This document shows, piece by piece, positions 6,301 to 58,737 of a stretch of DNA of 58,737 nucleotides (its first letter is position 1; every line of letters begins with the position of its first letter). Position numbers and translations under genes: made by a program. The DNA comes from a virus. The stretch is from positions 1 to 58,737 of IMG/VR virus record IMGVR_UViG_3300037150_000108, one strand, 5' to 3'. Below the pieces are notes generated by a model. That model ran no database searches. It was not told the DNA's origin and saw nothing but the letters and a program-made list of their open reading frames with translations.

Positions 6301-6994
6301 GGTTGCTAGTGTGACATTTCCTACGCTTACCGACTCCGCCCTAACTCCAGGCAACTGCGTGCAGGCTAGTACGGGAGGCTTGCTGACCACTACAGGCAGT
6401 CCGTGCGGCTCTGGCGGATCGGGCATCTCCGGCTTGACCGCAGGCTATATCCCTCTCGCGGGATCGGCCACGACCCTGACGGGCAACTCGCACATCGATG
6501 AGGTGACTAATGCAGGATACGACACCATATCCCAGCCAGTGATTGTCACGGGCACAGCTTCTCCCGCATCTGGTAAGGGAATCGTAGGCACGGATGGTAG
6601 CGGCAACGTCACGATATCCAACAATGGGACACCGTTTACGCCTGCCCTAACGCTCGGCGGGGCGCTGAGTTGCAGCAATCTGGCCTTTGGCACGGGAGCG
6701 GGAACTAGCCCAACCTGCACCTCGGTAAATGGCTACGACTCAACCTTCATCGTCAACATAACTACAGGGACGACGCCTGCCGCTAACAGTCCCGTGTTCA
6801 CTGTGACGTTTACGGCAAGCAGGGGCCATGTCAGCGCCTGTGCGATATCTCCGGTGTTTGGGGCGTACTCGACGACGTTGCAGATTCCTAGCACGAATAT
6901 GAGTTCTCCGAGTGCTACCAGCGTTGTGGTAGACAGCTCGGCAACCGCACTGACTGCCGCTACAGGCTACTTTTACACCTTGGTGTGCCCATGA
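3338..6994 (+). CDS. Large secreted-type tail fibre/spike protein
   Basis: A protein of about 1218 residues starting at the ATG at 3338 (GAGG at 3328-3331). An in-frame GTG two codons earlier is less likely. Residues 1-19 form a signal peptide (MRKLLALL to HAQ). The rest is low-charge Gly/Ser/Thr/Asn-rich sequence, with a region around residues 240-800 of more ordered beta-type sequence and aromatic repeats. Near the C-terminus are repeated fibre-style stretches (LTAGYIPLAG, LGGALSCSNLAFG), and the end resembles that of the preceding gene. Its stop overlaps the next start (ATGA). The likely role is host-surface binding. It has no recognisable catalytic motif. Confidence 0.65.
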   Translation: MRKLLALLIIGCACAIHAQVIGLDPTPMAVYYWNIGTSQWTACSNSSTAEPFQSTPQAFALEGFNSVLGQWTPQTSCPGSGSGSGLTSFQGRTTAAAVLLLSDINTVLKTATSCNVAGGYTYSPYSNSCILSGGGFTAGGDLSGTSTAQTVIGIQGKAVVNTAPTNGQVLTWNTGLNEYVPIIPPLATSSTFGTVKPDNTTVTISAGILSAVGGGGGSPCATANAVQISTGSAFGCDPNITINTTIHTLTSPQLYGNSVNPAYNSSLGAWVPYYNPCTNTQLTGDTGGDYTYSQCHKTVFNDYNPGFSYGNSSITSNQGWNLPYGYFLDVNEFGNGITNGSAINYNANKEGDSALSNWNMWAKPAWIEASGEGTQALRITFAEQPEYLGTVSSGTAGQTVVNLTCTSHCANDPNNGGGSGIGLNSDLIDLTSGQSGTGTYVGGGGTSPAYITTSLTVTSSIEGSFSAAIDVPRTVGNTTGQLSKATITTTLNVTGATAITVGQICFALGPEYFERFTPSAVGSLGGGTQSVTAVFHYSHTSGTVFFCGGSAGDALEQTVTTVGSNRYVEDVYGSEAPHTLIIGHQIPSGVTSVFTGSSVATVQYHAASVVGVINSGTGVPDGGQLTVDANGTFASGDAVEDTNNIAAIYNLLDFSAGASTINNPYAQRLENSHSWEGLGGGLNPTTNGFEYYDNTNASSNYSGAGGGYIAPWLFDIQGAVLNGLAFQYAPIYGGATAVGAQANCAGYMLCVASGPIPGAISTVEGIFNEGDQAGSITYDHAPETFTLSPNVYIREALTLGTPSVDYGSIVLSGAFVNNQYTGGGPSSQGALFNSGNGITDPHGEVRLQAWNYINYLPTLAFENTAGTLLSSIGMDAAGHVSINSAARGDALGTLDLANETVTNEMVTKETVNGTNHCANFQVGTSTVCTPSPYALFETDFVIEDPTGATDQRLADFIKTGGHLYGRFVNDATTAANDWLDVAYGSGYTVASVTFPTLTDSALTPGNCVQASTGGLLTTTGSPCGSGGSGISGLTAGYIPLAGSATTLTGNSHIDEVTNAGYDTISQPVIVTGTASPASGKGIVGTDGSGNVTISNNGTPFTPALTLGGALSCSNLAFGTGAGTSPTCTSVNGYDSTFIVNITTGTTPAANSPVFTVTFTASRGHVSACAISPVFGAYSTTLQIPSTNMSSPSATSVVVDSSATALTAATGYFYTLVCP

Positions 6995-7443
6995 GAATAG
7001 TCATCCTGACCATCCTTCTTTTCACTGTGTACGCAGCCACAGCCCAGGCACCATTGAACGCAGTGCTGATTGGGCCTGAGGGCATCACCATCACGGCTAC
7101 GACAGGAACAGCGGTTAGCTATCAGTTCGGGACTGCGGGCAAGTTCAACACGGTCACAGCGCCAAAGTATCCGCTACTAGTGTCCTGCTCCAGTGCGGCT
7201 CCTTGCGCGCTACTGGGCGGAGATCCTGACCCCGGAATTGCAAAGTCGATCTACGCCATCCAGCAGACTACGGCCTACACAGTGACACTGGCGCCAGGCA
7301 CGATGATCCAAGTCCCTGCGCTCCCGAAGCCTCCTTTGACCGTGGTTAGCACTTACATAATCAGCGGGCCTGTGACCTTGACCAATTACAGCGATGGTTC
7401 GTTCATCCTGAGCGGTGCTGGCTTAACGGCGGTGAAGAAATGA
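6991..7443 (+). CDS. Small secreted-type fibre-associated protein
   Basis: A 150-residue protein starting at the ATG at 6991, which overlaps the upstream stop as ATGA. It has a hydrophobic signal peptide (MRIVILTILLF to TAQA, about 20 residues) and a mature beta-rich domain with two cysteines (SCSSAAPC) that may form a disulphide. It is translationally coupled on both sides, so it probably works with the two large flanking fibre/spike proteins, for example as an adaptor or chaperone. I recognise no family. Confidence 0.6.
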   Translation: MRIVILTILLFTVYAATAQAPLNAVLIGPEGITITATTGTAVSYQFGTAGKFNTVTAPKYPLLVSCSSAAPCALLGGDPDPGIAKSIYAIQQTTAYTVTLAPGTMIQVPALPKPPLTVVSTYIISGPVTLTNYSDGSFILSGAGLTAVKK

Positions 7444-9812
7444 AGAAACTCATTAGACTTGTAATCATTCCATTCGCTCTTGCAGTGCTGTGTGGAACAG
7501 CGTTCGGCACCACCTTCTACATCCGCGGTGATGGCGGCAACCGCATCTCCTCCACTCTTCCCTATGGAATGTGCACAGGCACAACCGACGCAGCTTATCC
7601 CGGAACCACAAACCTCAATTGGCTTCCTGGCCAAGTCTTTTCGACTACAGGATCCTCAACTGCCATCGTAGACGCGAACGGAAATTACGAGTGGGTGACG
7701 ACGGCTGGCACAACCAATGCAACTACGCTACCGACATGGCCGGCGCACGCAGCCGGAGGCTCGCCTACCACCACTGATGGCACAGTGACATGGACTTATC
7801 AAGGGCCGGCTCCTATCGATCAGTCTTGTGGTTGGAGTGATCCTCGCTATGTGTGGACAGATGGCAGCACTGCGGGATCAATGGCAATGGGTGGCGGAGA
7901 CACACTGCTGCTTGAAAACAGTTATCCTTCAGGGCAGACATCCTGGCGCTTCGCCGGCCGAGCTACTGGTGGGACCGGACTAGGCTCTTTGTTCAACGGC
8001 TACCAAGGTGGCGGCGGTGATCCATATACCGACTACAACATCAACTTCCCGGCTGGAACTTCCGGCGCTCACACCAGAATCTTGGGCGCGAATTATGCAA
8101 GTTGCGGAACGGGGCAAAAGACCAATATCTTTGGCGGCTTTGCAGCGCTCGCAGTCATCAACCTTCAACAAACCAGCTACGTTGACGTTCAATGTCTGGA
8201 TATCACCGACCACAGCAGTTGTATTTTATTCGGCAACGCGCAGTTGCCATCATATTGTCAGCATGGTGGATCCCCCTATGACGACTTTGCGGACAACGGA
8301 ATTATGACTGATACCAACGCCAGCACTGGAGGATATCAACTTCCGCACAACATCCTACTGCAAGACCTCAACATCCACGGCCTTCCGGCCTCCGGCATCG
8401 CAGGAGCTATTGGTGGAGCTTTCACGCTGACTCGCATCACCTCAAACCGCAACGGTTTTGCCGGGTGGAATTTCGACTGGACGAGCGATGGTCTCGGGCG
8501 GATTCCGAACAATCCTGCGGCCACAATCAATGCGCAGTACGTGACTATGGACTGGAATGGCTGCAACGAAGAATATCCGATGGTTGATCCTGTCCCGATC
8601 ACCTACTGCTACAGCATCATCAATGGCGGATTTGGTGATGCGTGGAGTGGACAGGATTCAAACCTCGCTTCAATGACCTGTAACCACTGCGAGATGGCTT
8701 GGAACGTGAAAGACGCCTTCTTCGGCCCGCACACGGCGCTTGGCAGCGTCACCATCACCAACTCTACCGCATTCAACAATGGCGGGCAGACGTGGAAAGC
8801 AAATCTCGCCTCTACTGGCCAATTCCTGATGCAGAACACGTTGACCAATGCCAACTGTAGAAGGCTCGCCCAACCAGTCACCGGCACTCCCTCTACATTC
8901 AACACATACATTGATATCAATGATAATTTATGTCGTTCTGACGGTGCTGCTATCTCTCTAGTGTGGCCTATAGCTGGATCATTTGAAATTGATGACAGTA
9001 CCTTCGTCAGCGCAAGTTTGAACGTCGCCCTTGACTTCGGTTGTTGGAATACATTTACCTCTGTCTCGGTCGGTGCGGGCGGAACTGGATATACGGTAGG
9101 CGACGTACTCTATGTTGGTGGGACTCAAGCGACAGTCCAAGTCACATCTACTAGTTCTGGCGGGGTTATTACAGGGCTTACGATTATATCGGGCGGCCAA
9201 GTAACGAACGCTCCGCCGTACACCAATCCATTCACTGAATACTATATCTTCGGCGGCACTGGTAGTGGAGCAGCTGTCACCGTCGTCGCAAATACGCCTG
9301 CGACTTGCAATGGCGGTCCACGCATCCTGCGCAATAATAATTTTATTGGCTATACGAACACCAGCGATTACTACTGGAACGGCTCGCAGATTACTTTTAT
9401 CTGCTACTCGTCGTGCCAAGCACAGCCCGGAACGTCCGACGATACGATGTGGACAACGCGCAGCAACAACAACTTCTACGGCTATGCATCAGGAGTTCAC
9501 GGAGCTTGCACCTATGCGGGCGAGATATGCGGCAGTCCGATTATGACGGACCAACCTTCGCAGACCTGGACCAGCGAGACACAACTTGACCCGTTCACAC
9601 CATCGCTCCCAGCCGCCAGCAATAGCTTCTACCCCAGCAGCGGCAGTCCGCTGATTGGAGCAGGGATTACTTACAGCGGCATCCCTGCGACCGACTACTA
9701 CGGCGTGACTACTACCTCGCCCCCAGTGATCGGTGGGGTGAACTATAGTGGCGGATCTCCGACATCTTTGACGATCGGAGGCGGTGTGGTGCTCAGTGGG
9801 GTGATTATCTAA
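7440..9812 (+). CDS. Right-handed beta-helix tail spike with signal peptide
   Basis: A 790-residue protein with a signal peptide (MKKLIRLVII to TAFG, about 23 residues) and a long parallel beta-helix pattern: short strands with repeated Asn, Gly and small residues (for example ITSNRNGF, CEMAWNVKDAFFG, ITNSTAFNNGG). It resembles pectate-lyase-like phage spikes that cut or bind polysaccharide. About residues 540-620 form an inserted Gly-rich module (GGTGYTVGDVLYVGG and GGTGSGAAVTVV), a repeat type common in phage fibres. It is coupled by ATGA to the gene before and overlaps the lysozyme gene start by one base (TAATG). Depolymerase activity is inferred. Confidence 0.7.
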   Translation: MKKLIRLVIIPFALAVLCGTAFGTTFYIRGDGGNRISSTLPYGMCTGTTDAAYPGTTNLNWLPGQVFSTTGSSTAIVDANGNYEWVTTAGTTNATTLPTWPAHAAGGSPTTTDGTVTWTYQGPAPIDQSCGWSDPRYVWTDGSTAGSMAMGGGDTLLLENSYPSGQTSWRFAGRATGGTGLGSLFNGYQGGGGDPYTDYNINFPAGTSGAHTRILGANYASCGTGQKTNIFGGFAALAVINLQQTSYVDVQCLDITDHSSCILFGNAQLPSYCQHGGSPYDDFADNGIMTDTNASTGGYQLPHNILLQDLNIHGLPASGIAGAIGGAFTLTRITSNRNGFAGWNFDWTSDGLGRIPNNPAATINAQYVTMDWNGCNEEYPMVDPVPITYCYSIINGGFGDAWSGQDSNLASMTCNHCEMAWNVKDAFFGPHTALGSVTITNSTAFNNGGQTWKANLASTGQFLMQNTLTNANCRRLAQPVTGTPSTFNTYIDINDNLCRSDGAAISLVWPIAGSFEIDDSTFVSASLNVALDFGCWNTFTSVSVGAGGTGYTVGDVLYVGGTQATVQVTSTSSGGVITGLTIISGGQVTNAPPYTNPFTEYYIFGGTGSGAAVTVVANTPATCNGGPRILRNNNFIGYTNTSDYYWNGSQITFICYSSCQAQPGTSDDTMWTTRSNNNFYGYASGVHGACTYAGEICGSPIMTDQPSQTWTSETQLDPFTPSLPAASNSFYPSSGSPLIGAGITYSGIPATDYYGVTTTSPPVIGGVNYSGGSPTSLTIGGGVVLSGVII

Positions 9813-10285
9813 TGAGCTTTACTCAGGAACAAAACGAACAGGCATGCGTCACCTACGGCCCCCAGGTCGGGCCTCTGCCACCTGGAGTCGACGGCACGCG
9901 ATTACTCTGGGCTATTACGGGAGTCGAGTCCTCGCACGGAACCAACTGCACGCCGCGGCATGAGCCTGCCTTCGATGTGGGCGGGGCTTACGGCTCCCAT
10001 GCGCCCATGCCGGCGCTGCTGGCCATCTACGGCTCTCCTGCAGCGGCATCGAGCTACGGACCTTTGCAGGTCATGCTGTGCAACGCCCAGGGACTGTCCC
10101 CGGCAGGCTTCAACGACATCAACGAGGCCTTCCATGCCAGCGTCACATTCCTGAATCAGCAACTTCGGCACTTCCAGCCGAACAGCCTTGCAGAGATTGG
10201 CGAAGTTTGGAACGCGGGACACGTCACTCCAGATCCTGCTTACGTGGCAAAACTGACGGCGCAGTACTCAGTACCCATTCCATAA
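9812..10285 (+). CDS. Lysozyme/transglycosylase-like endolysin
   Basis: A 157-residue protein with lytic transglycosylase (SLT/goose-lysozyme-like) hallmarks: a helix with ITGVESSHG (candidate catalytic Glu39), the motif YGPLQVM (residues 82-88), and a later VWNAGH (about 131-136). Proteins of this fold cleave peptidoglycan glycan strands. It has no signal peptide, so release would need a holin. The small membrane proteins encoded immediately downstream fit that role. The start overlaps the previous stop (TAATG). Confidence in the fold is good; the exact cleavage type is uncertain. Confidence 0.75.
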   Translation: MSFTQEQNEQACVTYGPQVGPLPPGVDGTRLLWAITGVESSHGTNCTPRHEPAFDVGGAYGSHAPMPALLAIYGSPAAASSYGPLQVMLCNAQGLSPAGFNDINEAFHASVTFLNQQLRHFQPNSLAEIGEVWNAGHVTPDPAYVAKLTAQYSVPIP

Positions 10286-10297
10286 GGGGGGCGCGTG

Positions 10298-10675
10298 ATG
10301 GGGGAAGGTGAAGTGGAATCTGTCCGCCGGGCGATCGAGGATCTGTCACGTAAGACCGAAGCCCAGCATCAGGACAACCAGAGGACCTCGAGGAAGGATC
10401 GGGAAGCCTTCCTCGCGGCCATGACACAGCAGCGCGATTTGTTTCAGGAAGCGCTCAACAAGCAATTTCTGGAGCACATGGAGTTGGTCCGCTCCGTCGA
10501 CAAGGGATTTATCCTGGTGGAGTTGTGCGTCGGCACAGGAAAGCCTGGAGAAGGGCGGCTTGGCCAAGTTGAAGAGACGGTGGAGATGCTCAAGAAGTTC
10601 CGCTGGCAGGCATTAGCTTTGCTTGCCGCTGTGCTCTGGCTTGCGGACAAGATACGACCGGCTATCGGTCACTAG
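10298..10675 (+). CDS. Coiled-coil protein with C-terminal membrane anchor, holin candidate
   Basis: A 125-residue protein: a charged helical N-terminal region (residues 1-95, likely coiled coil) and one C-terminal membrane segment (WQALALLAAVLWLADK). This layout resembles XhlA-type phage membrane proteins that help lysis. A strong ribosome site (AAGGGGGG) lies before the ATG at 10298; a GTG just upstream is an alternative start. It sits directly after the endolysin gene. The holin role is inferred from topology and position only. Confidence 0.6.
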   Translation: MGEGEVESVRRAIEDLSRKTEAQHQDNQRTSRKDREAFLAAMTQQRDLFQEALNKQFLEHMELVRSVDKGFILVELCVGTGKPGEGRLGQVEETVEMLKKFRWQALALLAAVLWLADKIRPAIGH

Positions 10676-10702
10676 GGAAGAAAGATCGGGGAGGTAACTA
10701 AA

Positions 10703-10975
10703 ATGCACATATGGGTGGAAACGCATGGTTTTGAGTGCGTGTTCTTTTTGTTCGTGTTCTCGCTCATCATGTCCAACGCGCCTAAGCCTCCAGTTCATTG
10801 GGGGTTCTGGAAGCTTTGGGCCTTTGGAGCGATGAAGGCTCTGGGCGCAAGTGCTGCGATGGTCGAGCAGGCAAACCCTCTGGCGCAACAATTTCTCCAG
10901 ACTCAGACCGCAACGCCTGATAAAGTGGTCACAGAAACTGCAGCATCGTCTGGTCCGGTGACGGACCCAAAGTAG
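10703..10975 (+). CDS. Small membrane protein in lysis region
   Basis: A 90-residue protein with a hydrophobic N-terminal segment (CVFFLFVFSLIMS, about residues 12-24) followed by a Trp/Pro-containing stretch and an Ala/Gln/Thr-rich soluble tail. The position between the endolysin and a peptidase-like gene suggests a holin, antiholin or spanin-like accessory. There is no lipobox. GGAGG is upstream of the ATG. Confidence 0.55.
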   Translation: MHIWVETHGFECVFFLFVFSLIMSNAPKPPVHWGFWKLWAFGAMKALGASAAMVEQANPLAQQFLQTQTATPDKVVTETAASSGPVTDPK

Positions 10976-11004
10976 CGCCCCCGCAAGGGGAGAGGAGCAA
11001 CACA

Positions 11005-11424
11005 ATGAGCTTTCTGACCACAGTAGGCAAGGACATCAAATCGGTATTCTCCTGGCTCGGCTCGACAAAAGGGCAGGCCGTAGTGCAGACAGCGGAAGGC
11101 GCGGCAGAAGTTGTAGCCACGGCTGCCGGCGTCGGCGGTCCAGTCGCGGCTGGTCTAGGTCTGTTGAATAACTGGATGGGCGAGGCGGTCAAACTGCAGG
11201 CTATGGGTGAAGCGGCCGGAGCTACGCCAGCTTCCAACCCCATCAAAGCGGCGGCGGTTATCTCCACAATGGAGCCGGAATTGCTGTCATTCCTCCAGGC
11301 GAACGGCTATGTCACCACGAACGTCGGCGCACAGGCTGCAAGCATCAACACGGCAGCCGTAGCTCTCTTGAACGCCTTGGGAACCCCGGTTACTCCTGCG
11401 ACCGCGTCCCCAGCCAATGCCTAA
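11005..11424 (+). CDS. Hypothetical Ala/Val-rich small protein
   Basis: A 139-residue protein rich in Ala, Val, Thr and Gly. A mildly hydrophobic helix (about residues 33-60) could pack against a membrane. A GAGGAG ribosome site precedes the ATG. The 3' end overlaps the next gene by eight bases, indicating coupled translation. It lies inside the lysis region, so a lysis or virion accessory role is possible. I recognise no family. Confidence 0.6.
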   Translation: MSFLTTVGKDIKSVFSWLGSTKGQAVVQTAEGAAEVVATAAGVGGPVAAGLGLLNNWMGEAVKLQAMGEAAGATPASNPIKAAAVISTMEPELLSFLQANGYVTTNVGAQAASINTAAVALLNALGTPVTPATASPANA

Positions 11425-11890
11425 CAACCTCGTCATACGCTTCGTTAGTGGTGCCGGATTCGTCAGCGCGGCGATCCGGTACGTCACCAATGCGCCTTGG
11501 ATCATCCACGTAGAGGCTCTGTCCCGCGATGGCAATGCATGGACGGGCGCACACGCTGGATCTGGAGTTCAACCGCGTCCGCTGGACTACTGCAATCCCC
11601 GGATGGAACGTCGCTACTTCATGCCAGTCACGCAGTCAGAGTTCGACCGGGCGCACACGTGGCTGGAGTCAAAGATTGGCGAGAAGTACGACTATTTGGA
11701 CATCCTTGGCCTGGCTCTGAAGCATCGAGTATGGAACCCCCACCGGGTTATCTGCTCGGTATTGATGATGCAGTTTATGCAGCAGGCAGGAATGGAGCCG
11801 CTGAACGTCCTGGCTCAGTTCGACGCGCTCATCACCCCAGATGAATTGCACATGTCGAACCTGTTCATCGGGCGATCAAGGGGTTTCTAA
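11417..11890 (+). CDS. Permuted papain-like (YiiX/NlpC-type) cysteine peptidase or amidase
   Basis: A 157-residue protein whose motif order fits circularly permuted NlpC/P60-like proteins: an early His (IIHVEA, His31), then a GVQPRPL strand, KYDYLDILG, and a late Cys at the start of a helix (ICSVLMMQF, Cys113), followed by ITPDELHMS. Such enzymes hydrolyse amide or thioester bonds; in a lysis region a cell-wall peptide substrate is plausible. The start overlaps the upstream gene. The 3' end overlaps the convergent HD gene by 26 bases. Confidence 0.65.
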   Translation: MPNNLVIRFVSGAGFVSAAIRYVTNAPWIIHVEALSRDGNAWTGAHAGSGVQPRPLDYCNPRMERRYFMPVTQSEFDRAHTWLESKIGEKYDYLDILGLALKHRVWNPHRVICSVLMMQFMQQAGMEPLNVLAQFDALITPDELHMSNLFIGRSRGF

Positions 11891-12779
11891 GATACCGGAC
11901 AGCCGCGCTGTACTTCGCCAGCAGACGCAGGTACGTCTTCTCGGGCAGTTTGAACAGACGCTCGGGGTTCATGTTGTCCGCGAGGTCTGCCAGCTTCACT
12001 TTGATCGCCAGCGGGTTCTCGGAGACACGCCGAATGTAGGCCTCGTAGGACTCTCCATCCAGATGGCACAGTGCGATACAGCACCTCAGTACTTCGGGCT
12101 GGAACTCGGCCTGAATGGTAAGCGCCCATGTGTCGGTAAATTGCGAGTCCTCTAAAACGTCGTGCAGCAGCGCGCAGACCTGTTCCTCATGTGTCTCCAT
12201 CGCCATGGCTACGCGCGCAACGTGGAAGAGATAGCTTTCTCCTTGCATGTCGAGTTGCAGCCCATGCACACTGACGGCGATCTCCCAGGCTTTGCGTACC
12301 ATCTCTGCTGTGACCGGATCCAGCGGCGGCAGCGTCTCTTGTGGGGCTGGAGATGTAGTAATGTCGTCCAACATGTTTGGCCAGTTAGCCGCAATCTTGG
12401 CCATCAATTCCAGCGCTACATCTTTTGGTTGGTAACCGTGCAGGTATAGGTTCAAGATATTCGCAGTCTGGGATAGCCATATTTCCGGTTCTACTACCTC
12501 GTGCTTGGCTGCTGTCTCCTCAACTGCGTACTCATCGCGGTCTGTCATCATTGGTTCTATCGCCTTCGGATCGTCAGTCTCGCGGTACGGCCAAGCCCAT
12601 GCAGGCCAGTTACGCTTACGAACGCCGGGGCACAACTCCTCCAACACGTCGCCCAACGTTCGTTTGGCTGCCGTCTCCTCTATGGGTGATGCGAGGGGCT
12701 TCCAGTTGACACCTTTCGGACTGTCTTCGCAGATGCAGTTATACCTACGGCAATAATGGCACATCGCTCCGTCACCCAT
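11865..12779 (-). CDS. HD-domain hydrolase of the SpoT/MESH1 type
   Basis: A 304-residue protein. The C-terminal half has the metal-binding HD signature in the arrangement used by RelA/SpoT and MESH1 alarmone hydrolases: HVARVA (His186), LHDVLED (His206-Asp207 and Glu210-Asp211), and VKLADLADN (Asp265). This family removes pyrophosphate from (p)ppGpp or acts on related nucleotides. The N-terminus has a small Cys cluster (CHYC..CIC) and two EETAAK repeats. There is no synthetase domain. It is the last gene of the leftward operon, with GAGG before the ATG. The alarmone substrate is inferred; another nucleotide is possible. Confidence 0.75.
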   Translation of the reverse strand: MGDGAMCHYCRRYNCICEDSPKGVNWKPLASPIEETAAKRTLGDVLEELCPGVRKRNWPAWAWPYRETDDPKAIEPMMTDRDEYAVEETAAKHEVVEPEIWLSQTANILNLYLHGYQPKDVALELMAKIAANWPNMLDDITTSPAPQETLPPLDPVTAEMVRKAWEIAVSVHGLQLDMQGESYLFHVARVAMAMETHEEQVCALLHDVLEDSQFTDTWALTIQAEFQPEVLRCCIALCHLDGESYEAYIRRVSENPLAIKVKLADLADNMNPERLFKLPEKTYLRLLAKYSAAVRYLRNPLIAR

Positions 12780-24069: not shown

Positions 24070-24283
24070 TTTGGAAGAGTTTGATTTGCCGTACATTGCG
24101 CTCGCACTAGAGCGCATCGGGAAAACTCCGCGACCAGAGGGAGAGCCATCATTTCCAGCCGTAGGCACGCTGATACTAGCCATCCGCGATGCACACCCCC
24201 GTAGGGACGTGTTAGCAGAAATTCGCGCGCGCAATGCCAAAGCAATGGCCGAAGTGGAAGCGGAGTCTAAACTTGGGAATTGA
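23915..24283 (+). CDS. Probable helicase loader (G39P-like)
   Basis: A 122-residue helical protein. The segment from IVAMLAILG through DYQVLAADLEEFDLPYIA to PSFPAVGTLILAIRD follows the layout of phage helicase loaders of the G39P/DnaI-like group. It lies between the initiator-like gene and DnaB. Its start overlaps the initiator gene by 155 bases in another frame; GGAGGCAGCA right before the ATG supports this unusual start. A later ATG at 23999 would lose the basic N-terminus. The function is inferred from position and pattern. Confidence 0.6.
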   Translation: MGTDITKEKQSKALTQHEKPSKQSRIVAMLAILGIRRQAKLSSQDYQVLAADLEEFDLPYIALALERIGKTPRPEGEPSFPAVGTLILAIRDAHPRRDVLAEIRARNAKAMAEVEAESKLGN

Positions 24284-25541
24284 CGCCATCCGCGAAGGCG
24301 TTCCAGCCTCGATCCACACCGAAGTCGCCATATTAGGGGCCATAATGCTGGACCCGCTGGCGCTGGCAGACGCTCGTGCGAGGCTGGTGGCGGGGGATTT
24401 CATCCTCGACTCGCACCAGAGGGTCTACAGGGCGATTCTGGCGGTTGGCGAGGGTGCAGACTTCACGACTGTGCGCGCAGAACTCGAGCGGCGCCGCGAG
24501 ATGGATGCGATTGGCGGGATCAACTACCTCCTGAGCCTGACTGAAGGCATCCCGCGCAACTTCAACATCCAGGCCTACGTCGAGATTGTCTTGCAGAAGG
24601 CCATGCTGCGGCGAGTCATGCAAATCTGCCACGATGGGCAAGTCCGGGCTCAGGACGAGTCTGAAGACGCCTACGAGGTTGCCGACTGGATCACGAAGCA
24701 GTTGACCGAGGAGCGGCCGGAGCAGTCTGTATCTGTCTTTGACGCCATGCCCAAGGCGTTGAAATCGCTGGATGAGTCGGCAGGGAACGTCATCTCTACC
24801 GGGATACGCGAGCTCGACGACTTCACTTCGGGCGGGATGCGGACCAAGGAACTATGGATCATCGGGGCTCTGCCTTCCCGCGGCAAGTCATCCCTTGCCC
24901 GTCAACTTGAGCGGGGCGCTCTTTGGGCAGGCGTTCCGGTCCATACGCACACCATCGAGATGGGCAACAACGAGTGGCTAAACTACCACGCAGCGGTGGT
25001 GGGTGGGGTGCCGGCGTGGAAGCTCAGAACCCCCTACGCCATGCCTGTAATGGATCGGCACAACATGAACGTTGGGGGCGCTACAGTGCAGAACTGGCCC
25101 TTCCTGCTCGATGACTGCGGCCAGGTCCACATCAACACGCTCTTAGCCAAGAGCAGGCTGTCAGTGATGCGGCACGGCACCAAGGTAGTGGTGGTCGATT
25201 ACCTGCAGATGCTCGACGGGGATGAGAAGGAGAAGCGGAACCAGATGGGCACGGCGGCGAAGAAACTCAAGCAGTTCGCCAAGGTCCATGATTGCTGCGT
25301 GGTGGCGCTCTCGCAGCTTGCCCGCAGAGGCGACATCAACGCGCGCCCAACCATGCAGGATCTGAAAGAATCAGGCGACCTCGAAGCAGCCGGCGACGTG
25401 ATCTTACTCAATTACATGCCAGTGGACGATGGGCACTTCACAGGCGACGACGAGATCATCATTGCGAAGCAAAGGCATGGAGCAATTGGTTCAATTCCAA
25501 TGCGTTACGACAAAGAGACGTTGACATTCAGAGCGAGGTGA
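24273..25541 (+). CDS. dnaB: DnaB-like replicative DNA helicase
   Basis: A 422-residue protein from the TTG at 24273, which has GGAG seven bases upstream; an ATG at 24234 without a ribosome site is the alternative. The N-terminal domain (EVAILGAIMLDP, DFILDSHQRVYRAI) is DnaB-like. The RecA-like core has a Walker A variant (GALPSRGKSS), a Walker B (VVVVDYLQML), VVALSQLARR and the arginine-finger region near IIIAKQRHG. It unwinds DNA at the fork as a hexamer. It follows the loader gene, forming an initiator-loader-helicase cassette. Confidence 0.9.
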   Translation: MGIDAIREGVPASIHTEVAILGAIMLDPLALADARARLVAGDFILDSHQRVYRAILAVGEGADFTTVRAELERRREMDAIGGINYLLSLTEGIPRNFNIQAYVEIVLQKAMLRRVMQICHDGQVRAQDESEDAYEVADWITKQLTEERPEQSVSVFDAMPKALKSLDESAGNVISTGIRELDDFTSGGMRTKELWIIGALPSRGKSSLARQLERGALWAGVPVHTHTIEMGNNEWLNYHAAVVGGVPAWKLRTPYAMPVMDRHNMNVGGATVQNWPFLLDDCGQVHINTLLAKSRLSVMRHGTKVVVVDYLQMLDGDEKEKRNQMGTAAKKLKQFAKVHDCCVVALSQLARRGDINARPTMQDLKESGDLEAAGDVILLNYMPVDDGHFTGDDEIIIAKQRHGAIGSIPMRYDKETLTFRAR

Positions 25542-26708: not shown

Positions 26709-27055
26709 GCCAAGTCCAGCGCACCGCCAATCACTGCGACATCTGCGGGCACGAGTGGCTACCTCAATCCGGGGTAGCCTACTCGCATTGCACCAGTGGA
26801 AAGTGCCGGTCGCGCAAGTGGGATAGGGGAGAGGCCGAAAAGGTGAAGGCACCGGTCTCCAAAACCGGGCACGCGGGTTCGACTCCTGCCTCCCCTGCCA
26901 AACTCGCCGAGCGTATCGCCACCGGAGCAGAAGGCAAGGCGCTGGCGAGCCGAGCTGTAAAAGTTCTACTGGAGAAGCGACCCCACCTCAAGCCAGTCTG
27001 CCCGTCCTGCGGGGCGCTCAATGGGATGCACCAGAAAGGGTGTAAAGCTAAATGA
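26705..27055 (+). CDS. Two-zinc-finger protein whose frame runs through a tRNA gene
   Basis: A 116-residue frame. The N-terminal part has HCDICGHEW and HCTSGKC (one zinc site), and the end has VCPSCGALNGMHQKGC (a second). The middle (about residues 40-65) is translated from the tRNA-Trp gene at 26825-26900, giving the typical phantom sequence GSTPASPAK. The frame is open throughout. It may be one protein that absorbed the tRNA as a linker, or two proteins separated by a tRNA. The ATG is coupled by ATGA. Confidence 0.55.
   Translation: MSQVQRTANHCDICGHEWLPQSGVAYSHCTSGKCRSRKWDRGEAEKVKAPVSKTGHAGSTPASPAKLAERIATGAEGKALASRAVKVLLEKRPHLKPVCPSCGALNGMHQKGCKAK
26825..26900 (+). tRNA. tRNA-Trp (anticodon CCA)
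   Basis: A 76-base cloverleaf. The acceptor AGGGGAG pairs with CTCCCCT, followed by G and an encoded CCA. The D-arm has a three-pair stem with GG in the loop. The anticodon arm is CCGGT-CTCCAAA-ACCGG with anticodon CCA; its stem and loop match those of E. coli tRNA-Trp as I recall it. The T-arm is GCGGG-TTCGACT-CCTGC (one G-U pair). The odd point is A at position 8 instead of the near-universal U. It lies wholly inside the open frame 26705-27055. Confidence 0.85.
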
Positions 27056-51688: not shown

Positions 51689-54600
51689 ATGGCCGACGCG
51701 GTGATGGATGGACCCTGGACCGACTACGCCGCGCCTGCCAAACCACAGGCGACTGATGACGGGCCGTGGGCTGATTACGCTCCGCCTGCACCTCCCAAGT
51801 CAGTTGCTGCAACGACACCCATCCCGGAGAACTGGCCTTCGCAGACTGACGTAGACCGCCCAACCTACTACCACGGCGATCAAGGCGCTCCGGTGGGCAT
51901 GGCGCAGTCTGGACCTCCTGGTTACACGCCGCCAGCACCACCCACGCCGAAGCCGCCCATGCCTGTCTCGGAGGGCTCGATGGGCATCACAGGGATGCGG
52001 CAGAGCGGGCCTCCGGCGTTTGCTCCCCCCTCAGTAACCTTCAATGCGCCATCGCAGGGCGGCGACAATGGCGGCAGAATTTCAACCATGCCGCAGGACC
52101 GAGTAGCCGGAACGCTGCAGATGGCTCCTCCCTCAGTCGATATGCGGTACGACACCAGCCAAGACCCTAGTGGGCAGAGCGATCCCGCCGCCCGCGCCGG
52201 GATGGTTGCGCAGATGGCACAGGACCGCGCAACCGGAACTACACGCAACGCCGCACAGTCCATGCAGAATAGGCAGGACTATGAGAATTGGTCATCCAAG
52301 CTCCCGCGCCTGGTGCCTGAAGATCATCCTCTGACTCCGGAGGAACATCAGCAGATTGCGGACTTGACTGCAAAAGCGCAGGCACATAAAGGCCCGTTCA
52401 CCCCTACGTCGCAAGAAATGGATTTACTTCGCCGCGATGCTCTGCAACGACCAGGCATTGCAGGGGCAGTTGAGATGGAGTTGAGGCAGAAGCTCTCAGA
52501 CTTTAGCCGTGTAGATCAGTTGGCTATGATAATGGCGCTCCCTGAATCCAAACTGGTAAGCCTCTACTTTGGTGGGCAGATGGCCGTAGGTGCCATGCAT
52601 GAGACGCCTGCGGCATGGGCCGCTTACCAACGTGGGCACAAGGAACTCGCGGCTAGATTGGCAACCGGGGCCATAGTGGATGCGGCAATGGCTGCACTGT
52701 CCGCAAAGCACGTTGTGGGCGATACTCCCGGCAAGATAATCAACTCGTTCGGTGCCGAGAACTGGCAGGGTGATCTCCAAGTTCCTGATGAAGATGGCAC
52801 ATCTGCCAAACCACCGATGCCGGGATCGCCATACGGCCCAACTAGGGCTGCATCCCCGCCAGTTGAGCATGGACCGTGGGAGGACTTCCGGCCAGCCGCT
52901 CCGGTTGCACCCGCCCCAGTACAGGACACAACGCGCACCTTCACCGCACCGGCTAATGCAGCGCGCCGACCAATCTCCGCAGATGTTGCCCCTGCCGCGC
53001 CGCAATCTGGCGTGAAGTTCGATACCGGGCCGTTCGACTTCGATAAGTTCGAGGGCCGTCCGGTAGTGCAGGGTTCAACCGATCCCGCAGCCATTCGAGA
53101 ATCTGCCAAAGCGCAAGAGAAGCCAACCGTAGTTGCAGTAGAGAAGGCTGTCGCAGAGGTGCCGGGTGCCGAGGTAGACGGTTCTCGCCTGAAGAATGAG
53201 GCCTCGCAGCAGAACAAAGCCGACCGCGACAAGCCTGTCGAGACGCAGAAAGACCATCTAGGTGTGCGAGTTCCAGCGGACACGCCTGAAGCTCAGACGG
53301 CGGCAGTGGGCAAGATTGCCGAGCAGATGCCTGTCGTCGGGACTGAGCCGCTGGACAACAATGGGCTGAAGGGCACGCAGGTCTTTGTAAAGACTGGCGA
53401 GGCTGGAGAGGCGAACCAGACCTCAGAGGTTCAGGTTGTGCCCACATCGCAGGTTGAGGCGATGAAAGAGACTGACCCCATGTATGACGAGCAAAAGAAG
53501 GCGCTTGCGGCAGGGGACACAGCCAAGGCAGAGGAGATCGGCAAGCAGATTCACGAGATTCACGACGCTGCGCTAAAGTCTGGTGGTGGTGTCAAGAGTG
53601 ATCATTCTGGTACACTTTCGCCGGAGTCAAATTCGGAGGGTGGAGGGGATCGCGGAGAATCGCCAGAGCCGAAGGAGGGCGGAGCAGACAACGCTCTTCC
53701 CTCCCTCGATAACGCAAACGCGAAAACTAATCAAGCAGAGCCTGTTCCCCAGGCGTCCACAGAGAGTAAGGCAGTACCAACATCAGAGAGCGCGACTGGT
53801 AAAAAGGTTGCCTCAAAGTACGATTCAGCGTCCACGCAAGCCAACTTGCCCGAGAACAGCCCTGCGGCGAAGGCTGTGCGTGCGATCCAATCGCAGATCC
53901 CGAAGCCTTACCTAGCTGGCGATGGCATTGTCCAGGACCTGCATGTAACTGTGCGGTATGGACTCAAAGCAGAAGAGATAACCCCCGAGCTTCGGCAGTG
54001 GATCGAATCCCAGACTCCATTTCAGGCTAAGTTGGGCGTCACAACCAGCTTCCCGCCAAGCAAATACTCGGATGGCGCATCTCCTTTGATCGTGCCCGTC
54101 GAATCTCCTGAACTGCATAAACTCAACGCCGAGATAGAGAAGCAGGGAGACTTTGAGCCTTCCAGCTTTCCCGACTACAAGCCGCACGTCACAGTTGCGT
54201 ACCTCGACCCGAACCAGGTCAAGAACTATGAGGGTACGTGGCTGGCGAATGGCAAGTCGTTCCCTATTGACTCGATCACCGTCAGCAAGCGCGATGGGAC
54301 CACTGAAGACATTGCGTTCAAAGGGAAGTCGGCAGAGGTTGCCCCAGTCAAGGCAGGTTCCACCGTAAAGCTCCCCGATGGCCGCATCGGGCCTGTGATT
54401 GCGCTCAAGCCGAACCGCAGCGGAGATGGCTGGATCAAGGTCGGGAGTGCAAGAATTCCCTTCAAAGCAGGCGAGGCGCAGGTAGTCGACAAGAACGCGC
54501 CAGTCGAGGGCGTGACATCGGGAACCCCTGGGCACGAAACTCCCAAGCAGGGTGCAATCGCCGTAGACCTTGACAAGACCCTCGCAGAGTACAAAACAGG

Positions 54601-57600
54601 TGAGTTCCACCCCGAAGTCATCGGCAAGCCTATTCCCGAGCAGGTCGCAGCGGTCAAGCAGATGCTGGCGGATGGGAAAGACGTGTGGATCTTCACCGCG
54701 CGCGCCTCGCATCCGGACGGACTGCCTGCGGTCAAAGCGTGGACGAAGCAGCAGTTTGGCCGCGAGTTGCCGATCACAAACGTCAAGTATCCTAATTTTG
54801 AGCGATTTATCGATGACCGGGCAGAGTTGCCGGTGCAGATGCAGGAAGGCACAACTAAGCGCAACCGTGCTTTGGGAATAGATGAACCCGAGCGGATTCC
54901 TTTGAAGATGAAAGACGGCACGCCCTTTGTTCTTCAGCGGAAGTTCGCCGGACACTACGATGCTCTGGATGCAGAAGGAAACAAGATTGGGACGTTCGGA
55001 TACTTGCGCTATCCCAGCGGCGAATGGAAGATGGCAGGCGCTGAAGTAGAACCGCAATTCAGGCGCAAAGGTATCGCTACAGCCGCCTATGATGCACTCG
55101 AAAAGGTAGTCGGCGGGAAGTTTCAAGACACAGGAAGTCAGACTGACTACGGTAGATCATTCTGGGATTCCAGACGTGAGCAAGGAGGCAAGGATGCCAG
55201 TCAGCAATCTTCAGAGACGGTGGGCAAACAGCCCGAGCGGGGTAGCGGCACTCGGAGCGAAGAAAGTCAACGAGTGGAACCAGGAGTCAAAGGGAGTGAA
55301 GTTGCCGGAGAAGTCCAGCGGCCCAGCGCAGAGCCAGCAGGTGGAAGCAAGACTGCACAAGCCGGACCCGCACGCAGCGAAGGCGAAGTTCAAGGCAATG
55401 GCGGACAAGCGCAAGGGCCGGTAGAGAAGTTCAAAGCGCAGACCGAACAGCGCAAGCCGAAACCTTTGGCGCCGGGTGAATCAGCAAAGGAGCGAAATGG
55501 AAAACAAAAAGATAGTTCTAGCCCACGTACTGCGGACGCCGGAGGACGACCCGTTTCGGAAGGCGATGAGAGCGGTGGCGAAGGAACTCAACAGACGACC
55601 GAGTACAGTCCGGAAGTCACCCGCACCGAGGGCGTAGAAGACAAGCCGATCCCTGCCGCTGCACTGCAACTCAAGCCCCTGAAGGCGATGCCGCGCAATG
55701 GGACGATGCTCAAAAACTATGAGGGCGAATACCTGAAGGCTGCTCTAGAACCGGCACGCGCGGCGTGGGAGAAGCATTTGGAAGGCGTCCCTGAAGTTGG
55801 CTTTACCGAGCCGAAGACGCAGAACGGCCGCAAGCAGTTTACCGCGCAACTGATGACGGGAACCTATCCTCAGCCGTCGCTTGAAATCAAGGCGGGACGC
55901 GACAATATGTACGCGGTGATCTTCAGCGAATACCACACCCCAAAGGGCACCCAGCAGCCCATCAAAGTCGAACAGACGCTCGCCAGCGGCCTGAGCATGA
56001 AAGCGGCGAAGGATATGGCGGAAGCGCGGTTGCGCGGCGGCGAGATGACGAATCCCGGCGAACCGTTCTACTACAACAGCCGTGAAGTGCCCGACGTCAA
56101 GATCAAGAACACCGGGACAAAGCCGGATGGATTAGCGGCCAGCAAGCTCATCGTGCAGGTTCCAGGCGACGGTCGATTCACTATTCCTAACAACTTGACT
56201 GCCATCGAAGGGGCCATAGAGAAGGCTGACAAGTTCATTCCGCCGAAGGCAGACCGCTATGCGCTGCCCCGAGTTCCGAAAGCCCCGGACGAGTTCGACA
56301 ACGCGAAGCACATCGCCAACCTGAAGCGAGAGATAACGGACCTCGAAGCTGACGTGAAGCGTGCGGGCAACACTGGCGCTGCGTCGTCGTGGCAGGCCCA
56401 ACTGGATGCCACGCGGGAGCAGTTACGGGATGCGGAGGCAGGTAAGAATCAGTCCGAAGACCCGGAAGCAGGCTTCCTCGACATCTCCCCCCTCGTCAAC
56501 ATGGCTGCACCTCTGCGTGAAAACCTAGAGCATCGCAGCGAGATAGCCGACGTAGCCAACAACGTCCACGACGTTCTGCAAAGACTCGACCGCACCAACA
56601 AAGCCTCTACCCTCGAAGCCAAGGGCATTGCACGCGCTTTCCAAGATTCTGGATTCTCGAAAGAGGATGGCGATAAGGTCTTTGCCAGCATCGAAGACCC
56701 CAAAGTCCAACTGACCCCGGACCAGATCGGCCTCAAGTACAAGTGGATAGTGCCGCTCGACAAACGCGCAGCTAGCCAGCGCGCAATCACTTTGCTCATC
56801 AAGTCGCTGTCAGACAAAGATGCACAGAAGCGACGGGCGAAAGACGGAACAGAGTTCACACTCGAAGACATTCTGGCCGGCAGGGTTCCGCCCGAAGAGG
56901 TTGAGCGCGTTGCACCGGAGCAGCCGAACTACCAGCACCGCATCGCAGTAGACAAAAACACGTTGGTCGATCGCATCCTGGGCGACTCGATGAAGCGGTT
57001 CCGCGCTGGCGGATCTGCACTCTCCCGCACCTTCCCATCGAGCAATCGAAGCGTCTTCCACGAGATTCACGGTCCTGATGGCGAGAGAGAAACTGTTGCG
57101 GTCAAGCATGGCAGAGTCACTCGCTTCCGCATGGGCGCAGACGGTAAGCCGGTCCTCGAAGACTTGGGCGCCTTCCGCTCCGGCCTGACTGATGCAGGCA
57201 AGGAAACCGACGAGCGCATGGCTCCGTTCGTCCAGCGCATCACCGAATTGCGGAAAGAGATTGCGGAGATGCCCGAGGCTGACAGGCAGGAACAACTTGC
57301 CAGCGTGCAAGCGAAGATTGCCGACCTGCGCAAGCAGATGGACTTGCTCGATAAGGTCAAAGCTCCGGTAGGACGCACTTCGATGTTCGGCGGGAAGGTT
57401 GTCTATTCGACCGAGCCCACCTTTGGGCAGCGTGCGGAGATCTCGCGCAAGCTCGACGTACTCCTGAAGCGCGAGGAGCGGCTGAAGAACAGCACCGAGC
57501 CGATGCTCAAGAAGAATGTAACCAAGATGGAAGCCCGCAAGGAAGAGTTGAAGGGCAATGAAGACTTCCGCGATGCTGCACTCGACGAAGGCGAGAAGAT

Positions 57601-58737
57601 GCAGGGCAGGGTGTGGAAGGACAAGAACGGCGACCAGTGGAAGTTTGACCGCGGCACCACGAAATTCATCTCCCAGCAGACCGGCCAGGAGTACCACGCC
57701 AACGCCATGCTTTCCTCGCTGGTCAATTGGATGGAGACGAACAAGGCCATGAACGCCGCCGTCGTCATGGAGCGGCTGAAGGGCATCCTTGCGGATGAGG
57801 GTATGGCAGTCAAGTCGGATAATCCTCTGACCGTGCCCGACGGATGGAAGGGCACGACGTTGCAGCAGATGCGCGGCTACTACTTCCCGACGCACATCGC
57901 AGAAGCTCTGGACCAGTTTGACTACCTCCAAAGTCGGGGGCAGCCGAATATCGCAGAGAAGGCCAACCGCTTCATAATACAGACGGTGCTGATGAATCCG
58001 CTCATGCACGGCAAGAACATCGCAGCCAACTTCTTCACTGGCAAGGCAGCGGAGGCAATCACCGGGCGCGCTCTGGTTCCACGATGGTACGGAGACAACG
58101 CCAAGGCAGGCGTGAAGGCCGTCAACACCCTCAAGGACATGGGAGGGCCGGAGTACCGCCGTCTGTTGCGCCTGGGGCTTGATTTGCAGGGAGCAAGCAC
58201 CTCCTTCGACCAGACGACCAAGGACATTCTGCGAGGGTTCACCGACCAACTTGCGGCCGAGCCAGCGCAGAACAAAGCTCTGAGCGCGCTGATGGGCATA
58301 GCGGACGCCGGGAAGTGGTTGCAAGACAAGAACCATCTTGCAACCTTCGGCATCAACGACTTATTCCTGTTGCAATCGTTCTACGCACGCGAGTCCGAAC
58401 TCGAACGCCAAGGCATGCCTCAGGAGCAGGCGGAGACGGCAGCACGCGATTGGGCGCATCTCCAGGTAGCTGAGTACACGACGCCTATCCGGGTGGGTGG
58501 AAGTGCAGCGTTGGGCCGGCTGATGGAGAATCCGAACCTCTCAGCCTTCTGGCGCTACCACTTTGGCGGCATCTTGCGGCCGGTAATGAACGCCGTATCG
58601 GACGCAGTCGGATCGTTCAAGCCTGAGGAGGAAAGTGATCGCAACTCCCGAGGCCAGACCGAAGCGCAGGCCCGCATCAATGCGATTGCGCGGCTGGTGG
58701 TGTTGACAGCCTTCGCAACTGTCGTCTTTCCGAAGGT
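51689..58737 (+). CDS. Giant polyvalent protein (2H phosphoesterase, HAD and GNAT-like domains), truncated by the window edge
   Basis: An open frame of at least 2349 residues that runs off the right edge. Visible in order: three GPWxDY/F motifs in a Pro-rich N-terminal region; a 2H phosphoesterase domain with two H-x-T motifs (HVTVRY at His752 and HVTVAY at His833); a HAD-type phosphatase domain (VDLDKTL at Asp960, then FTAR and FIDDRA); a GNAT-like domain (FRRKGIATAAYDALE, about residue 1125); a long disordered linker (about 1155-1330); then helical regions. This multi-domain style is that of phage polyvalent proteins thought to enter the cell with the DNA. It follows two internal-protein genes. 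Confidence 0.7.
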   Translation, partial: MADAVMDGPWTDYAAPAKPQATDDGPWADYAPPAPPKSVAATTPIPENWPSQTDVDRPTYYHGDQGAPVGMAQSGPPGYTPPAPPTPKPPMPVSEGSMGITGMRQSGPPAFAPPSVTFNAPSQGGDNGGRISTMPQDRVAGTLQMAPPSVDMRYDTSQDPSGQSDPAARAGMVAQMAQDRATGTTRNAAQSMQNRQDYENWSSKLPRLVPEDHPLTPEEHQQIADLTAKAQAHKGPFTPTSQEMDLLRRDALQRPGIAGAVEMELRQKLSDFSRVDQLAMIMALPESKLVSLYFGGQMAVGAMHETPAAWAAYQRGHKELAARLATGAIVDAAMAALSAKHVVGDTPGKIINSFGAENWQGDLQVPDEDGTSAKPPMPGSPYGPTRAASPPVEHGPWEDFRPAAPVAPAPVQDTTRTFTAPANAARRPISADVAPAAPQSGVKFDTGPFDFDKFEGRPVVQGSTDPAAIRESAKAQEKPTVVAVEKAVAEVPGAEVDGSRLKNEASQQNKADRDKPVETQKDHLGVRVPADTPEAQTAAVGKIAEQMPVVGTEPLDNNGLKGTQVFVKTGEAGEANQTSEVQVVPTSQVEAMKETDPMYDEQKKALAAGDTAKAEEIGKQIHEIHDAALKSGGGVKSDHSGTLSPESNSEGGGDRGESPEPKEGGADNALPSLDNANAKTNQAEPVPQASTESKAVPTSESATGKKVASKYDSASTQANLPENSPAAKAVRAIQSQIPKPYLAGDGIVQDLHVTVRYGLKAEEITPELRQWIESQTPFQAKLGVTTSFPPSKYSDGASPLIVPVESPELHKLNAEIEKQGDFEPSSFPDYKPHVTVAYLDPNQVKNYEGTWLANGKSFPIDSITVSKRDGTTEDIAFKGKSAEVAPVKAGSTVKLPDGRIGPVIALKPNRSGDGWIKVGSARIPFKAGEAQVVDKNAPVEGVTSGTPGHETPKQGAIAVDLDKTLAEYKTGEFHPEVIGKPIPEQVAAVKQMLADGKDVWIFTARASHPDGLPAVKAWTKQQFGRELPITNVKYPNFERFIDDRAELPVQMQEGTTKRNRALGIDEPERIPLKMKDGTPFVLQRKFAGHYDALDAEGNKIGTFGYLRYPSGEWKMAGAEVEPQFRRKGIATAAYDALEKVVGGKFQDTGSQTDYGRSFWDSRREQGGKDASQQSSETVGKQPERGSGTRSEESQRVEPGVKGSEVAGEVQRPSAEPAGGSKTAQAGPARSEGEVQGNGGQAQGPVEKFKAQTEQRKPKPLAPGESAKERNGKQKDSSSPRTADAGGRPVSEGDESGGEGTQQTTEYSPEVTRTEGVEDKPIPAAALQLKPLKAMPRNGTMLKNYEGEYLKAALEPARAAWEKHLEGVPEVGFTEPKTQNGRKQFTAQLMTGTYPQPSLEIKAGRDNMYAVIFSEYHTPKGTQQPIKVEQTLASGLSMKAAKDMAEARLRGGEMTNPGEPFYYNSREVPDVKIKNTGTKPDGLAASKLIVQVPGDGRFTIPNNLTAIEGAIEKADKFIPPKADRYALPRVPKAPDEFDNAKHIANLKREITDLEADVKRAGNTGAASSWQAQLDATREQLRDAEAGKNQSEDPEAGFLDISPLVNMAAPLRENLEHRSEIADVANNVHDVLQRLDRTNKASTLEAKGIARAFQDSGFSKEDGDKVFASIEDPKVQLTPDQIGLKYKWIVPLDKRAASQRAITLLIKSLSDKDAQKRRAKDGTEFTLEDILAGRVPPEEVERVAPEQPNYQHRIAVDKNTLVDRILGDSMKRFRAGGSALSRTFPSSNRSVFHEIHGPDGERETVAVKHGRVTRFRMGADGKPVLEDLGAFRSGLTDAGKETDERMAPFVQRITELRKEIAEMPEADRQEQLASVQAKIADLRKQMDLLDKVKAPVGRTSMFGGKVVYSTEPTFGQRAEISRKLDVLLKREERLKNSTEPMLKKNVTKMEARKEELKGNEDFRDAALDEGEKMQGRVWKDKNGDQWKFDRGTTKFISQQTGQEYHANAMLSSLVNWMETNKAMNAAVVMERLKGILADEGMAVKSDNPLTVPDGWKGTTLQQMRGYYFPTHIAEALDQFDYLQSRGQPNIAEKANRFIIQTVLMNPLMHGKNIAANFFTGKAAEAITGRALVPRWYGDNAKAGVKAVNTLKDMGGPEYRRLLRLGLDLQGASTSFDQTTKDILRGFTDQLAAEPAQNKALSALMGIADAGKWLQDKNHLATFGINDLFLLQSFYARESELERQGMPQEQAETAARDWAHLQVAEYTTPIRVGGSAALGRLMENPNLSAFWRYHFGGILRPVMNAVSDAVGSFKPEEESDRNSRGQTEAQARINAIARLVVLTAFATVVFPK
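55194..55424 (+). CDS. Small gene overprinted inside the polyvalent gene
   Basis: A 76-residue frame in the +1 frame relative to the polyvalent gene, lying over its disordered linker. It has GGAGG at ideal distance before the ATG and a protein-like product (VSNLQRRWANSPSG, AKAKFKAMADKRKGR), more ordered than the Glu/Gly/Ser-rich main frame. If real it is expressed from the same message. Function unknown. Confidence 0.5.
   Translation: MPVSNLQRRWANSPSGVAALGAKKVNEWNQESKGVKLPEKSSGPAQSQQVEARLHKPDPHAAKAKFKAMADKRKGR
55497..55637 (+). CDS. Second small overprinted gene
   Basis: A 46-codon frame in the same alternative frame as the preceding small gene, with AAAGGAGCGAA before the ATG. The product is basic and helical (DPFRKAMRAVAKELNRRPS). 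The second well-placed ribosome site in 300 bases argues for real nested genes, but no homologue is known to me. Confidence 0.45.
   Translation: MENKKIVLAHVLRTPEDDPFRKAMRAVAKELNRRPSTVRKSPAPRA

Follow-up and report, generated by a model that had tools for sequence, protein, structure and literature searches.

The giant gene at the end of this viral contig encodes a protein in which residues 456-632, by their predicted structure, are a RelA/SpoT-type alarmone-synthetase fold, the most conserved part of the protein, followed by a 2H phosphoesterase, a HAD phosphatase and a GNAT acetyltransferase domain. The protein is of a known kind; what is new is the combination, a conserved module of synthetase and HAD, and a HAD that is circularly permuted in many relatives. 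Judged from its sequence and from structural models, it is probably a polyvalent effector carried in the virion.

Extent and surroundings of the giant gene

The contig is a 58.7-kb virus record, whose 58,737 nucleotides make up the window. The giant frame begins with an ATG and continues without a stop to the 3′ end of the contig, where it is still open, meaning that the gene is cut there and that its 2349 residues are part of the full length (Table 1). How much is missing can be estimated from nine relatives, in which 308-322 residues separate a hydrophobic segment from the C-terminus; since the corresponding segment of the window protein sits at the contig end, this spacing suggests that roughly 300 C-terminal residues are lacking. 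T7 gp16 was considered as a homolog of the C-terminus and dropped because the comparison was unsupportive.

Could so long a frame be an artefact? The longest open run in composition-shuffled copies of the same stretch was 261 codons, and L003, a relative of 2689 aa, aligns collinearly with residues 451-671 and 1532-2348 of the window protein, which gives no sign of a frameshift; together these results led us to reject the artefact reading. The single frame of more than 2300 residues reported in a preliminary description of this DNA therefore holds, and the two histidines 81 residues apart (His752, His833) and the aspartate (Asp960) that it singled out are exactly where it placed them. A sequence-only search of the whole giant protein against the PDB gave no match, there were no close DNA relatives of the right-hand 24.7 kb among cultured phages, and the bacterial genomes scanned held no prophage copies. 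Elsewhere in the window are a tRNA-Trp (cca) gene (26825-26900), a DnaB-like replicative helicase (24234-25541; PHROG 19, E 5.8e-67) and a gene at 707-2230 whose C-terminal end weakly matches a tail-fibre PHROG.

Table 1. Coordinates of the giant gene, its features and its upstream neighbors in the window.
Feature	Position	Strand	Details
Conserved neighbor, 1176 aa	43970..47500	+	35-70% identical in at least 10 relatives
Conserved neighbor, 144 aa	48635..49069	+	not matched to T7 gp13
Conserved neighbor, 354 aa	49084..50148	+	present before relatives
Upstream gene, 515 aa	50141..51688	+	conserved neighbor
Giant gene, putative polyvalent protein	51689..58735	+	2349 codons, open at contig end; L003 (2689 aa) matches in order
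N-terminal tandem motif GPWTDYAAP / GPWADYAPP	51710..51787	+	third copy GPWEDF at 52871-52888
Conserved helical segment ALPESKLVSLYF...	52529..52723	+	residues 281-345; matches L003 and L011
Predicted RelA/SpoT-type alarmone-synthetase-fold domain	53054..53584	+	residues 456-632; R500, K502, S506, K510, R513, D522, R527, E580, Q582
2H phosphoesterase domain	53801..54331	+	residues 705-881; H752-x-T and H833-x-T
SH3/KOW-like small beta segment	54344..54496	+	between 2H and HAD; named by eye
HAD phosphatase domain	54548..54844	+	canonical order D960LDKT, FTAR, K, FIDDR; Pnkp-3′-phosphatase-like model
GNAT acetyltransferase domain	54875..55183	+	RRKGIA loop; PF00583
Conserved C-terminal region	56456..58735	+	common to L002, L003, L026; hydrophobic segment 58676-58732

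Relatives of the genes that start at 43970, 47431, 48635, 49084 and, in part, 50141 occur in the same order in most related phages, ahead of the giant gene or the module gene. The terminase small and large subunit genes (TerS-TerL) come directly after the giant gene in L003 and also follow the small module gene in L014; in the window the terminase is beyond the contig end or unrecognized. That the gene directly follows internal virion genes, as had been proposed, is thus a plausible inference from position: the shared neighbors stand, but searches of PHROGs and Pfam identified no family for those of the window, and T7 gp13 was rejected as a homolog of the 144-aa neighbor after an unsupportive comparison.

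Domains of the giant protein

Two parts of the protein were missing from the preliminary description, the synthetase-fold domain and the conserved C-terminal region. A pairwise comparison with L003 exposed the former as a stretch of 48% identity (residues 451-671), and scanning with that stretch turned up relatives on more viral contigs. At a relaxed threshold Pfam RelA_SpoT was matched by 11 of 14 members (best E 8e-4; seven of eight in an earlier set), the window's own domain not being among them, and a sequence-only search of the PDB with the synthetase profile gave nothing significant, its top match being an alarmone synthetase at E 0.29-0.35, so that a comparison of folds was needed. The window's own segment was modeled with AlphaFold at a mean pLDDT of 84; all 38 PDB fold matches of this model at E≤1e-3 were alarmone synthetases or the tRNA pyrophosphokinase CapRel, and the best matches in a viral structure library include RelA/SpoT regions of large DdrB-like/ART-PolyVal phage proteins.

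Eight positions were invariant over 14 alignment rows (R49, K51, K59, R62, D71, R76, E129 and Q131) and S55 was nearly so; their window equivalents are the residues in Table 1, taken in sequence order with S506 for S55. All ATP-side and metal residues checked (R-x-K, S, K, R, D, R, E-x-Q) are therefore kept in the window, and the spacing K502-4-S506-4-K510-3-R513 is that of K66, S70, K74 and R77 in FaRel2 (PMC11782079). The domain shares its fold and ATP-side residues with the small alarmone synthetases and CapRel (RelP, RelQ, SaEAS/SaSAS, CapRel), although identity is about 10-20% among the matches listed and the window domain sits in a giant phage protein. At the acceptor G-loop, where relatives have Y114 (alignment numbering), the alignment gives the window a valine with an adjacent phenylalanine, and the SxH of guanosine-type synthetases is missing. 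The loop looks nearer to the GxN pattern of the adenosine enzymes (PMC12226406), but the alignment is uncertain there and we therefore predict no product; a claim that the acceptor tyrosine had been lost was withdrawn, since the alignment to SaSAS may be off by a residue at this point and cannot decide. The window's synthetase domain is the fastest evolving of the set (branch 1.13 in the synthetase tree), which, like its unusual acceptor loop and its missing match to Pfam RelA_SpoT, weighs against the effector reading given below.

The 2H domain was matched by Pfam PF13563 at E 2.8e-10, above its cut-off, and has both HxT motifs within a bilobal 2H fold. The model of residues 696-1165 has a mean pLDDT of 74.7 and a pTM of 0.42, making the relative placement of its domains unreliable, and all 35 of its PDB fold matches at E≤1e-3 fall on the 2H part (LigT, Usb1, cyclic phosphodiesterases, Acb1 and similar). 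Fold and HxT/HxT pair are common to LigT/Usb1 and to the anti-CBASS enzyme Acb1 (PMC9117128), but the best fold matches are of the LigT and Usb1 type, the motifs of Acb1 are 69 residues apart (H44, H113) versus 81 in the window, and the score for the Acb1 profile PF23474 was 24.9 bits against a cut-off of 27, on which ground Acb1 was rejected as its identity.

The window's HAD domain has all four motifs (DxDxT, T/S, K, DD) in order, matches PHROG 1238 (E 1.2e-9) and the polynucleotide kinase PHROG 415, and in the model resembles the phosphatase of T4 Pnkp (best E 4.5e-3), with which it shares fold and motif order, although the window protein has no kinase domain. The GNAT segment passed the PF00583 cut-off when residues 1063-1165 were scanned alone (E 2.9e-5; 24.8 versus 20.7 bits), contains the acetyl-CoA loop and has one related phage protein, L025; plain GNAT enzymes were absent from the best 50 fold matches listed for the 696-1165 model. 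The three domains of the preliminary description are thus borne out, all by profiles and the 2H and HAD also by fold.

At the N-terminus, none of 200 shuffles reached the window's tandem motif, and a tandem short motif, its sequence varying between phages, was found in 15 of 16 family N-termini (each ≤2/200 shuffles). The copies visible in L028, WDDE and WDET, fail this test. It is possible that the motif is a packaging or docking tag.

A shared synthetase-HAD module and a permuted HAD

By profile mapping, the synthetase domain is common to about 18 related phage loci; 18 were counted, leaving aside L018 (a truncated near-copy of L017) and L008, L013, L016, L020 and L027 (repeat contigs of loci already counted). 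Synthetase and HAD occur together in 15 of the 18, small separate genes included, the HAD being absent from L023, L028 and the truncated L007. The module is a small separate gene in L014 (486 aa), L019 (712 aa) and L021 (589 aa); in L019 the order synthetase-2H-SH3-HAD is exactly that of the window, and L014 and L021 have no recognizable 2H. A complete 2H was mapped in the window, L007, L009, L010, L012, L015, L017 and L019, with remnants left in L003 and L011; the L003 protein (4310-12379) retains about 47 residues of the domain, far from its synthetase domain, a sign of domain loss. Domains have been swapped freely between relatives. One of them, of at least 3850 aa (L015:8966-20515), also has GGDEF, DNA-methylase and SNF2/helicase domains, and another, of 3603 aa (L023:8159-18967), has a ddrB-like ParB domain and, by eye, a GNAT-like stretch right after the synthetase.

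The HAD is in canonical order in the window, L014, L019 and L021, but in L003, L006, L009, L010, L011, L012, L015, L017, L022, L024 and L029 motif I comes behind the rest of the domain, unlike in T4 Pnkp. When 10 of the permuted HADs were compared with a doubled canonical HAD, the Smith-Waterman score rose in 40 of 40 comparisons, by 1-23; canonical controls gained 0-5, and shuffled sequences scored far lower. Since motif I is short, the gain is a small one. Stronger evidence of permutation is the motif order itself: in all eleven sequences the sole DxDxT-type motif found comes after the acidic, K and FTAR-type motifs. Where the window has DD, most of the permuted HADs have DN. Just before the permuted core, L024:3-4871 (HVDLDPIGPPIP) and L015:8966-20515 (HVDTEPIGKPIP) have VDLD-PIG/VDTE-PIG strings, which may be relics of a lost N-terminal motif I. 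A single origin of the permutation is more than the synthetase tree can decide, the window row being too long-branched. The literature titles and passages searched contained no precedent for a circularly permuted HAD, which does not prove that none exists. A HAD like that of the window is also a separate gene beside thyX in Vibrio phage PVA7 (L005:2908-3612), where the annotation "phosphoheptose isomerase" is probably wrong.

What the giant protein may do

Polyvalent proteins with 2H, GNAT and RelA/SpoT domains, probably injected with DNA, were defined in 2017 (Iyer et al., PMC5512222), and phage-head-associated synthetases have an experimentally tested precedent in the MuF-linked adenosine 3′-pyrophosphokinases (PMC12226406); on these two grounds we assign the window protein to a known kind. 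Like the published proteins it joins several unrelated enzyme domains, with at least two catalytic activities of disparate type in one polypeptide, and the conserved block together with TerS-TerL of the relatives places its gene with virion and packaging genes. The proposal that it is polyvalent accordingly fits the definition; the domain combination is indeed unusual, as had been remarked, though RelA/SpoT, 2H and GNAT were already published in such proteins. A text search of the main text of PMC5512222 found no HAD domain, and we found no description of the four-domain combination, the permuted HAD or the tandem N-terminal motif. Pfam detected no LPD-type domain in the window protein; LPD1 appeared in L003 at E 4e-4, below the cut-off. 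The Apk2 MuF toxins (PMC12226406) resemble the putatively virion-carried window protein in being phage-head-associated and in having a 3′-pyrophosphokinase domain, but they have a MuF domain and immunity genes, whereas the window protein has no detected MuF and has 2H, HAD and GNAT joined on. Another similar protein, with a 2H domain 37% identical, is gp321 of the Acidobacteriota phage Tunturi_5 (PP885688), which adjoins virion genes and also has GNAT and ADP-ribosyltransferase domains, but has no synthetase, HAD or tandem N-terminal motif and has different flanks. That protein (L004:6597-10682) is annotated "MutT/NUDIX hydrolase", and Pfam finds in it ART-PolyVal stretches, 2H, GNAT and a weak SprT-like match but no NUDIX.

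How might such a protein act? We infer its packaging, ejection and catalysis. The N-terminal tandem motif would dock it in the particle, the protein would enter the cell alongside the DNA, and the C-terminal region, which includes the hydrophobic segment, may aid membrane passage or anchoring. Once inside, the synthetase domain could transfer pyrophosphate from ATP onto the 3′-hydroxyl of a tRNA end or of a nucleotide, which would slow translation or the growth of the host; the 2H might cut cyclic-nucleotide defense signals or 2′,3′-cyclic ends, the HAD might remove 3′-phosphates, and the GNAT might modify a host protein. The chemical theme that synthetase, 2H and HAD share is the ribonucleotide 3′ end.

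That chemistry fits repair as well as attack. The 2H and the HAD might heal tRNA or nucleotide 3′ ends damaged by defenses such as host anticodon nucleases or the tRNA-pyrophosphorylating CapRel/toxSAS, with the synthetase fold binding or reversing the marks. The HAD is like the 3′-phosphatase of T4 Pnkp, an RNA-repair enzyme, the 2H is like 2′,3′-cyclic phosphodiesterases, and the synthetase-HAD pair is conserved; we nevertheless regard repair as rather unlikely. We prefer attack because the synthetase has kept its ATP-side residues, those of ATP-dependent transfer, and the 2H comes without a ligase: neither an RNA ligase nor a 5′-kinase was seen in the giant protein, and the 2017 study reports that polyvalent 2H domains were in no case associated with RNA ligases (PMC5512222). 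In several members, moreover, the 2H is missing or decayed. The DN of most permuted HADs, the 2H fragments of L003 and L011 and the free swapping of domains might instead suggest a mainly structural ejection protein whose enzyme domains are decayed passengers; we think this improbable, given that in the window the synthetase residues, the two HxT motifs and all four motifs of the HAD are intact and that the module persists as small separate genes. Those same genes could speak for a host-takeover protein made after infection and never packaged, but the place of the gene, in a conserved block that in relatives runs up to the terminase genes, and a tandem N-terminal motif in nearly all members make this improbable too.

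Within the preferred reading of a virion-carried effector, a further idea, somewhat less likely even than repair, is that synthetase-(2H)-SH3-HAD would form one coordinated, virion-delivered machine for rewriting 3′ ends, whose own phosphatases trim or retune the pyrophosphorylated nucleotide or tRNA product. If so, the phage would be able to control translation or alarm signalling in its host at once, and to adjust that control. The small versions in L014, L019 and L021 make the module testable without the 2349-residue protein, and a small HAD phosphatase that occurs naturally in circularly permuted form, inside a fast-shuffling protein, is a useful case for studying domain rearrangement. If our reading of the giant protein as an ejected effector is right, a ready-made alarmone-type synthetase would be present in the cell from the very start of infection, arriving with enzymes able to erase cyclic-nucleotide alarms and RNA-end damage, and the toxic alarmone synthetases of bacterial immunity would be linked with virion-ejected phage effectors, two fields that are now apart.
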